Shown here piece by piece: positions 17,405-26,839 of a stretch of DNA of 64,000 bases. Location of the stretch: contig NZ_LT629742.1 in the NCBI RefSeq assembly GCF_900104895.1, positions 3,658,001 to 3,722,000 on the forward strand, written 5' to 3'. A program made the translations under genes and the position numbers. A model generated the notes under the pieces. It was not told where the DNA came from. It made no database searches and saw only the letters and a list, made by a program, of their open reading frames with translations. The first letter of the stretch is position 1, and each line of letters starts with the position of its first letter. This DNA comes from Microterricola viridarii (GTDB lineage Bacteria > Actinomycetota > Actinomycetes > Actinomycetales > Microbacteriaceae).

Positions 17405-17454
17405 CGATTTCCCCTTTTTGTGTACGAAGTCTGGGCTTATCCCCCGACTCCTCA

Positions 17455-17502
17455 ATACTACATCTAGTGCCAGCCGATAGGAACAGCCACTAGATGATGT
17501 AG
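17455..17502 (-). promoter_or_regulatory. Tandem NrdR boxes in the nrdHIEF promoter
   Basis: ATACTACATCTAGTGC (17455-17470) and CCACTAGATGATGTAG (17487-17502) both fit the 16-bp NrdR box ACACWATATATWGTGT in most conserved positions. They start 32 bp apart, about three helix turns, the spacing usual for NrdR pairs. On the minus strand TAGTAT overlaps the proximal box as a possible -10. An extra inverted repeat, ATGTAGTTACAT, lies next to the distal box. The region 17405-17914 holds no convincing gene. Confidence 0.7.
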
Positions 17503-17516
17503 TTACATTTATGTAG

Positions 17517-17601
17517 TTATCCACCGGTTACTCACCGGTTCTCAACAGGCCCGGCGACTGAGTTCGGCCTGTTTCCGCGCCTCTCGCGAGGCTTATCCAC
17601 A
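17517..17601. promoter_or_regulatory. DnaA-box cluster upstream of nrdH
   Basis: TTATCCACA at 17593-17601 is a perfect DnaA box and TTATCCACC at 17517-17525 is one base off. A weaker inverted relative (TGTGGAAAG) lies near 17629. DnaA control of nrd promoters is known in E. coli. This is upstream of the nrd genes, not a replication origin: there is no dnaA or dnaN and no AT-rich unwinding region. Confidence 0.5.
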
Positions 17602-17914
17602 GCCCCCCATTCGGGGAGCAGTTTGCCTGTGGAAAGTCCGTCGGCGTGTCGCCGGCGGATGTCGTTGACCACAAGATCCTGTGCTGCTATAGCCACTCTG
17701 CCAGCCCCCTCTGACACCCGTTTTCGGCGCCCAGAATCACCGTTTTCGGCGGCGCCTCACGCCGCCCGCGCCCTCCCGTCACGCTGATTCATGACAGGCC
17801 ACCCCTTCTCGGGGGATACTTTCGGAGGGGGCAATCGATTTCACCGTGACCTGCCCGACACGGCCGGCCCAGCAGGGCGCGCCCGGTAGCGAGTGACATC
17901 GAGAGGACGCTGAC

Positions 17915-18175
17915 ATGACGGCATGGTCGGTAGACCTTCCTGCGGCGAAGGCCACCGTCACCTCAGGCTCGGAGCAAGCCGCCGAGTTCGAGACGCACGC
18001 GCAGACGAGCATGAGGCGCAGGCGGCGCCTGGGCGGAGCTCTGGCGGGCGCGGCCATCGGCAGTTTTTCCCCTGGCCCCGGAACCCTGATCGGCGGCATC
18101 CTCGGTGGCGTCGGCGGGGTGCTTGGGCAGACCACAAGTCAAGCGACAACCGACAAAGTAAGAGGTGACGCGTGA
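17915..18175 (+). CDS. Small glycine-zipper protein of unknown function
   Basis: The 86-residue protein has a polar N-terminal half ending in MRRRRR (about 33-38), then one Gly-rich hydrophobic segment (about 39-72) including LGGALAGAAIG and GTLIGGILGGVGG. The repeated GxxxG spacing packs helices in membranes. There is no signal peptide. The stop overlaps the start of the next gene (TGATG), so the two are translationally coupled. The arrangement, a short GxxxG peptide plus a small multi-pass membrane protein, recalls peptide/immunity or holin-like pairs, but no homology is recognised and this is only an analogy. Confidence 0.65.
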   Translation: MTAWSVDLPAAKATVTSGSEQAAEFETHAQTSMRRRRRLGGALAGAAIGSFSPGPGTLIGGILGGVGGVLGQTTSQATTDKVRGDA

Positions 18176-18522
18176 TGTTCGGCGTCTACGTGGGCGGCTT
18201 TCTGTTCATTCTTGCGGGAACGCTGGCTTACACCGGCCGCTGGAAGGGGTGGGCGTTTGCCCGACCCGTCCTCAGCTACGGGATCGGCTTCGGCTGCCTC
18301 TACATGGGTATCGCCGTGGTGCTGGGCTGGACGGCCGCAACCGTGTTGCCCGATTCGATGAACATCCTCTTCATCATCCTGGTCAGCATCTCTGGCGCTC
18401 TCGTATTGCTCACACTGATTTCGCAGTGGTGGCTGCCCCGATTCCTGCAGCCCCGGTGGTTTCGCGAACTTCGTGCCGAGCAGCACCGCACCTACGGCCC
18501 GGGATGGGGCCGCAAGGCATAA
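18175..18522 (+). CDS. Small multi-pass membrane protein, partner of the glycine-zipper protein
   Basis: The 115-residue protein has about three hydrophobic helices (residues 3-20, 33-54, 61-84) and a basic, Trp/Arg-rich C-terminal tail (FLQPRWFRELRAEQHR). ATG 18175 shares its first base with the upstream stop codon; an in-frame GTG at 18172 is less likely. The family is not recognised. Tight coupling to the glycine-zipper gene suggests that the two act together in the membrane. Confidence 0.65.
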   Translation: MFGVYVGGFLFILAGTLAYTGRWKGWAFARPVLSYGIGFGCLYMGIAVVLGWTAATVLPDSMNILFIILVSISGALVLLTLISQWWLPRFLQPRWFRELRAEQHRTYGPGWGRKA

Positions 18523-18618
18523 GCGCCGCAGAGGCTCAACCCGCGCAGATCGAGAAACACGAGTCTGCTCCTGAGCGCGGCGGCAGCGGTTCCGGCATCC
18601 GCCGCCGCCCGCACAGCC

Positions 18619-18688
18619 CTCGCGGCCCCCGTTGTGTCTCGCGGCCCCCGACATAACGAGGGCCGCGAGGCACAACGGGGGCCGCGAG
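18619..18688. repeat. Long palindrome, copy 1 of a three-member family
   Basis: Arms of 29 bases (18619-18647 and 18660-18688) pair throughout, with a single T-G wobble, around the loop CCGACATAACGA. Each arm holds the core CTCGCGGCCC twice, around GTTGTG. It lies between convergent genes, where a two-way terminator would fit. Copies 2 and 3 are at 25322 and 26652. Confidence 0.85.
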
Positions 18689-25238: not shown

Positions 25239-25321
25239 GTTTCTCCGCGTGGCGTGCGCAGCATGCGCGGCCTGCGCGTTCGTGGCGCCCGACTCCCGCC
25301 GCCCCAGGCGCACGCGTCCGC

Positions 25322-25389
25322 TCGTGGCCCTCGTTGTGTCTCGCGGCCCTCGGTATACCCAGGGCCGCGAGACACAACGAGGGCCGCGA
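25322..25389. repeat. Long palindrome, copy 2 of a three-member family
   Basis: Arms of 29 bases (25322-25350 and 25361-25389) pair fully except for one T-G, with loop CGGTATACCC. The core GGCCCTCGTTGTGTCTCGCGG is the same as in copy 1, apart from one base. It lies just beyond the 3-prime end of the AbiEi-like gene and upstream of the ytfQ promoter. Confidence 0.85.
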
Positions 25390-26651: not shown

Positions 26652-26723
26652 GCTCGCGGCCCGCGTTTTGCCTCGCGGCACTCGTTATGTCGCGGGCCGC
26701 GAGACAGAACGCGGGCCGCGAGC
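26652..26723. repeat. Long palindrome, copy 3 of a three-member family
   Basis: Arms of 28 bases (26652-26679 and 26696-26723) pair with one T-G and one C-A exception around a 16-base loop. The loop contains TCGTTATGTCG, the reverse complement of the copy 1 loop, so copies 1 and 3 face opposite ways. It lies upstream of the AbiEi-like gene. Confidence 0.82.
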
Positions 26724-26839
26724 GCGCAAGACGGGCGGATGCCGCGATGCCGCCGCCGCGGGCGCGGGCGGGTGCCGCGGCGGGCGGACCGATGCCGCGA
26801 CGCCGCCGCGGGCGCCGGTGAGCGTCCCCGCACGCACGA

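Follow-up and report, generated by a model that had tools for sequence, protein, structure and literature searches.

A possible remnant of a type VII secretion-linked cassette: a chimeric short frame coupled to a candidate orphan immunity gene

The closest described counterparts of the locus analyzed here are the zipper toxins EsxX, TelE, and TspA, antibacterial substrates of the type VII secretion system (T7SS) of Bacillota (PMC12744356, PMC10434224, PMC7456083). EsxX, from the T7SSb of Staphylococcus aureus, depolarizes membranes; it is neutralized in the cytoplasm by the soluble proteins ExiAB, protection from outside is provided by the membrane proteins ExiCD, and there are genomes that have exiCD but lack the toxin (PMC12744356). 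TelE, from Streptococcus gallolyticus, requires its C-terminal zipper for toxicity and is countered by the soluble TipE, and a six-helix protein encoded beside telE gave no protection in Escherichia coli (PMC10434224). TspA is a membrane-depolarizing T7SS substrate of S. aureus that is countered by an adjacent membrane protein, TsaI, with several TsaI homologues at the locus (PMC7456083). From type VI secretion, Eag chaperones stabilize the transmembrane domains of effectors (PMC7773334).

Here, we describe two overlapping ORFs, A and B, in a 64-kb stretch of DNA (the window). Their coordinates and lengths, and the TGATG at which they overlap, are as the initial annotation gave them (Table 1). 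We propose, with a probability of about 0.5, that the pair is the remnant of a collapsed, T7SS-linked antibacterial cassette, with B retained as an orphan immunity gene downstream of a toxin gene that has collapsed. GC-rich DNA readily yields ORFs such as these, so homology must bear the case for both. When the entire window was scanned in six frames with cassette profiles, matches at E ≤ 0.01 were found at the ORF A/ORF B locus only (DUF6507, E 0.0032; zipper tail, E 3.4e-10; B, E 2.7e-30), with ORF A absent from the DUF6507 and zipper-tail profiles and ORF B included in the B profile.

Table 1. Features of the ORF A/ORF B locus (window positions) and of the G081 cassette (positions in locus L059).
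Feature	Position	Strand	Size	Basis
ORF A, chimera	17915..18175	+	86 aa
ORF B, putative immunity protein, predicted three-helix membrane protein	18175..18522	+	115 aa from ATG
Shine-Dalgarno-like stretch of ORF A	17901..17907	+		read from sequence
Shine-Dalgarno-like stretch of ORF B, within ORF A	18161..18167	+		read from sequence
Accessory segment holding ORF A and ORF B	17727..18585		859 bp	blastn against sister species G002
Sigma-70-like promoter match (weak) within accessory segment	17791..17820	+		consensus match only
ORF A residues 1-33, read as start of DUF6507	17915..18013	+		score and Pfam positions 1-33
ORF A residues 41-71, read as effector-tail glycine-zipper hairpin	18035..18127	+		protein and DNA match to G081
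G081 cassette DUF6507	L059:4568-4888
G081 cassette zipper effector	L059:4885-6015		376 aa
G081 cassette B homologue	L059:6012-6332
G081 cassette chaperone gene, putative	L059:6329-7570		413 aa

As judged from its sequence, ORF A is the start of a DUF6507 protein joined to the tail of a neighboring zipper effector. DUF6507 is a small family found beside T7SS genes, and its Pfam model (PF20117) aligned positions 1–33 with residues 1–33 of ORF A at E 0.054 and 14.5 bits, below the gathering cut-off of 25 bits; the DUF6507 protein of a cassette in G081, a genome of the same family, lies above it (34.8 bits). Scored against 29 DUF6507 rows, the first 36 residues of ORF A gave their highest value with the G081 cassette member (score 61, a value that none of 1000 shuffles reached). 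Four of the five best rows are cassette members, the third being the T7SS-linked copy of G081 (score 52), and the host's own T7SS-linked DUF6507 scored 31, a value matched by 58 of 1000 shuffles. At the DNA level, the DUF6507 part was not significant (11 of 200 shuffles as high). The second half holds the GxxxG-rich segment that was originally noted: a run of GxxxG-type steps at residues 41–71 that qualifies as a C-terminal glycine zipper; Pfam glycine-zipper models matched it below their cut-offs. These residues aligned to residues 325–356 of the G081 effector with a score of 123 (maximum of 1000 shuffles, 65), and window positions 18015–18120 are 81% identical to the effector-tail DNA over 112 columns, with small length changes. 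This DNA match starts directly past the DUF6507-like part, and the gap between the two parts, measured on G081, corresponds to about 1.2 kb absent from the window. Because a frame survives such a join with odds of about one in three, the open frame of ORF A does not by itself point to selection.

Of DUF6507, ORF A keeps just 33 residues, and the Pfam scan gave no LXG match. A YxxxD/E-type motif near the C terminus is a T7SS signal that lies outside the Pfam definition of DUF6507; YxxxD is found near the C terminus in 14 of the 29 DUF6507 rows and FxxxD in two more, some rows having neither, and ORF A lacks tyrosine altogether as well as any [YF]xxx[DE] motif. Its codon measure (–0.14) falls under all 169 reference chunks (lowest 0.13). 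Matches to ORF A at E ≤ 0.01 occur in 39 of 392 order genomes and are nearly all partial; neither the 299 family genomes nor the 392 order genomes searched (the samples overlap) yielded a convincing full-length relative, and we therefore reject ORF A as a peptide family of its own. Some weak matches do cover most of A (for example, residues 3–82 in G467, at 29% and with a stop). We re-inspected seven weak matches: six lie in regions without a cassette profile match, and several of the frames resemble reading-frame or composition noise. The seventh match, from G560, proved to be a genuine zipper protein of greater length (L128:5137-5997, profile E 3.8e-17). This protein has a WXG100-like start and the same kind of zipper tail, with no DUF6507 match nearby and a weak B-profile match (E 0.00081) in its vicinity.

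ORF B looks like an intact small protein with a predicted membrane topology. Its frame is uninterrupted throughout, the invariant positions of its family are present, and its AlphaFold2 model (mean pLDDT 88.7) has long helices at residues 2–20, 37–57, and 64–85 and a C-terminal helix at 94–107, in keeping with the protein of about three helices that was first described; the sequence also shows hydropathy peaks. Compared with the PDB, the model had 151 matches at E ≤ 10; at the stricter E ≤ 0.001 there were none. The family had been called unrecognized, which holds for B, to which neither Pfam nor NCBIfam assigns a family, and needs amending for A in view of the sub-cut-off matches above. The codon measure of ORF B is 0.14, near the values of the ORFs in the host T7SS locus (0.15–0.39). 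Relatives in the alignment are 21 to 38% identical (G081 B, 31%), and, at E ≤ 0.001, a match to the B family model is present in 18 of the 396 order genomes. In a tree of 21 B proteins the orphans did not group, the nearest relatives of the window B include orphans, and the cassette nearest to it was not fixed; given this unplaced source and the 31% identity to G081 B, the pieces in ORFs A and B may have different donors. The B alignment has no sufficiently conserved stretch, and a pattern-based locus search with ORF B alone confirmed 0 of 41 pattern matches.

Two other origins were considered and rejected. A holin-like pair had been suggested, and a tblastn search limited to ORF B gave no match at E 0.01 in 50,697 phage records; ORF B likewise has no plasmid match, which speaks against a plasmid-borne system. 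Elsewhere, a lone B gene in another genus (G202, L060:6138-6452) is separated from nrdH by about 3.2 kb, a distance that takes in rnhA and two other genes. Near full cassettes, ORFs of 325 to 354 aa start with a B-like domain (L098:3964-4941, L108:5564-6628, and L110:5916-6941), and these are possible fused immunity proteins.

The cassette from which the window pair would derive is complete in G081, where DUF6507, effector, B, and chaperone genes follow in that order, each overlapping the next. To describe the surroundings of B, we collected B matches irrespective of their neighbors and classified 35 B genes in 27 fetched regions (two overlap) within a 3-kb radius. A duplicate row from the L101/L102 overlap was dropped, the two rows of L112 are possibly one interrupted gene, and G183, G343, and G325 (E ≤ 0.001) were left out together with most places above 0.001 from the scan that gave G183. 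A zipper effector lies within 3 kb of B in 23 of the 35, a chaperone gene within 3 kb in 27, and DUF6507 nearby in 18; since some of the counted loci had contributed to the profiles for the zipper, DUF6507, and the chaperone, these counts are partly circular. As controls, 25 other loci from the same genome sample gave no cassette profile match (one of 26 intended loci, L015, was dropped as it is the G108 B locus). The frequency of zipper effectors beside B is as expected of a membrane immunity gene. Thus, the initial suggestion of a peptide with its immunity protein keeps its second half, since the B family stands mostly beside zipper effectors, and loses its first, since A is a chimera with no peptide family.

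The arrangement is not uniform. Order varies (G297 has B ahead of DUF6507), and three diverse B copies stand together in one G215 region, as in loci with several immunity genes. Five B genes stand beside a chaperone without effector or DUF6507. Seven have no cassette gene nearby at all, so that homologues standing alone, which the initial annotation had named as counting against a two-part system, do exist in part; orphan immunity genes would also stand in this way. None of the 12 B genes without a nearby zipper effector has a DUF6507 match, and the window is therefore the only place seen in which both collapsed pieces survive.

The putative chaperone of G081 has no Pfam match, and Pfam named none of the chaperone genes tried. 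Its structural model (mean pLDDT 79.4) is of a fold that structure comparisons, Foldseek included, match to chaperones of hydrophobic and T7SS substrates: the N-terminal domain resembles the Jonesia protein 3lyd (Z 17.8), LpqN (Z 15.8), and EagT6 (Z 15.1), and the C-terminal domain resembles EspG3 (Z 12.6, rmsd 4.9 over 216 residues). PsbP, DcrB, Mog1, and certain type VI immunity proteins share this N-terminal fold as well, so the fold alone is no proof and we infer the chaperone function.

At the level of the chromosome, the pair lies in an accessory segment. In G002, 45 bp replaces the 859 bp (blastn), between flanks that are 98.3% (726 bp) and 92.8% (615 bp) identical; boundaries were taken from blastn because a MAFFT DNA alignment puts the right flank in the wrong place. 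The segment is absent from all four congeners, in none of which ORF A has a match. The empty site between nrdH and lacI is present in G002 and G003, and the far neighbor of nrdH differs in G001 and G004. The long promoter-like region that had been tied to the pair (17405–17726) is conserved 5′ of nrdH in all four congeners, which lack the pair, and therefore belongs to nrdHIEF rather than to ORFs A and B. It contains inverted CACTAGAT/ATCTAGTG motifs and TTATCCAC stretches, which we take to resemble NrdR and DnaA boxes. Inside the segment, one sigma-70-like match was observed against 0.2 expected in shuffles. A GC-rich palindromic intergenic repeat lies 3′ of the pair (window 18619–18688) and again at 25309–25389 and 26652–26756, and the same repeat stands beside the same genes in G002 and G004; it may mark a recombination-prone site.

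The host itself encodes a T7SS. Its EccC scores 626.8 bits against a cut-off of 509.15, in a locus (L071:5747-17926; G000:C1:721746-733925) that also holds an EccD-like protein, DUF6507, two small WXG-like proteins, and a possible effector of 776 aa. Among the congeners, G001 and G003 have EccC above the cut-off and DUF6507, and G002 and G004 have neither, so the presence of a T7SS varies within the genus.

We infer toxicity, export, immunity, and translational coupling for the members of cassette and pair as follows. By analogy with the Bacillota systems, and with members of other protein families, DUF6507 would be the small partner, the chaperone the soluble keeper, and B the membrane immunity protein. 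The intact effector would be exported by a T7SS, after which its zipper hairpin would insert in a rival's membrane and depolarize it; in a protected cell, membrane-borne B would block the hairpin, as ExiCD or TsaI act against EsxX or TspA. In the window, a stretch of about 1.2 kb, running from codon ~33 of DUF6507 up to the zipper, would have been lost. What is left is the DUF6507 start, the zipper, and B, without the targeting partner, the bulk of the effector, or the chaperone. The only part that is whole is the one that would protect a recipient, and it is for this reason that we read B as an orphan immunity gene retained by the host and A as a collapsed toxin gene. ORF A would then be mainly a translated leader that hands ribosomes to B at the TGATG.

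Several observations favor this collapsed-cassette origin: the start of ORF A fits the cassette DUF6507 better than the host's T7SS-linked copy (61 versus 31), its zipper matches the G081 effector tail in both protein and DNA, B genes are found near zipper effectors (23 of 35) and also without cassette genes (7 of 35), the G081 cassette genes run in order with each overlapping its successor, three diverse B copies share one G215 region, the host has a full EccC, the predicted fold of the cassette chaperone resembles chaperones of hydrophobic and T7SS substrates, and exiCD offer a parallel of immunity without toxin (PMC12744356). Against it stand the distance of the window B from G081 B, with orphans among its nearest relatives, the lack of significance of the DUF6507 part in DNA, the variable gene order, the difference of B from ExiCD in helix number, and the poor codon use of ORF A, which is what decay would give. 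Plain decay is in fact the main rival: both ORFs would be functionless leftovers of a lost cassette, B happening to be still unbroken. The missing second half of the partner, most of the effector, and the YxxxD/E motif, the small length changes of ORF A relative to the G081 tail, its codon use, and the absence of the segment from all four congeners would all fit such an outcome; the openness of ORF B throughout, its invariant positions, and a codon measure near those of the host T7SS ORFs do not, and we regard decay of both genes as unlikely, though a serious contender.

We consider it improbable that the two ORFs form a working miniature pair, with B as the antidote to A, a short peptide acting on membranes. 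The zipper hairpin is in frame, A has a start and a Shine-Dalgarno-like stretch, B is coupled to it through the TGATG, and the zipper is the active part of TelE (PMC10434224), but ORF A lacks a convincing full-length relative in the family and order samples, has no export motif, and uses codons poorly. Equally doubtful is a role for B as a membrane component aiding export or insertion of the zipper effector instead of immunity. The 27 of 35 B genes with a chaperone gene within 3 kb, the usual position of B beside effector and chaperone, and the five copies beside a chaperone without effector or DUF6507 are compatible with that role; the seven copies without a nearby cassette gene and the up to three diverse copies in one region, which would be unusual for an export part, argue against it. 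Finally, an unrelated zipper and membrane protein pair serving envelope stress, its likeness to DUF6507 and the effector being convergent composition, is very improbable and we disfavor it. Glycine zippers are common and ORF A also matches general zipper models, yet the zipper match extends to DNA (81%), the DUF6507 match is correctly placed, and the gene that follows in the G081 cassette is a family member of ORF B.

More tentatively, at a little under even odds, the parent cassette would be an undescribed actinobacterial T7SS weapon, composed of a DUF6507 partner, a zipper membrane toxin, a three-helix immunity protein, and a chaperone that unites an EspG-like adaptor to the T7SS with an Eag-like part for holding membrane segments, as known from type VI secretion; the window would represent one end-state, in which the toxin gene has collapsed in frame and the immunity gene has been retained after it, coupled to it in translation. 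We found no earlier description of such a cassette in the open-licence literature, among the matches listed, and no paper on DUF6507 in the open-licence literature. A zipper-effector cassette that recurs across several families within an actinobacterial order would extend T7SS antagonism to actinobacteria, and a chaperone joining type VI-like and type VII-like folds would suggest how a membrane-inserting toxin stays quiet before export. If B does confer immunity, the window B should protect against the zipper domains of intact cassettes.

Set against the known systems, the cassette is most readily aligned with EsxX/ExiAB/ExiCD: each combines an effector with a C-terminal zipper, a small helical partner, a soluble keeper, and a separate membrane immunity candidate, and B genes, like exiCD, are also found without the toxin gene (PMC12744356). 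Unlike the EsxX system, the cassette has no LXG domain and no DUF5079/5080/5085 proteins, B is predicted to be one three-helix protein where ExiCD are two six-helix proteins, and the toxin gene in the window has collapsed (PMC12744356). With TelE it shares a putative T7SS effector bearing a C-terminal zipper; unlike the soluble TipE, B is a predicted membrane protein (PMC10434224). TspA/TsaI offer the parallel of an adjacent membrane immunity candidate present in several copies at one locus, and they are set apart, by their description, as other protein families (PMC7456083). The G081 chaperone, whose gene is absent from the window, is predicted to combine in one protein the folds of both the Eag and the EspG chaperones.
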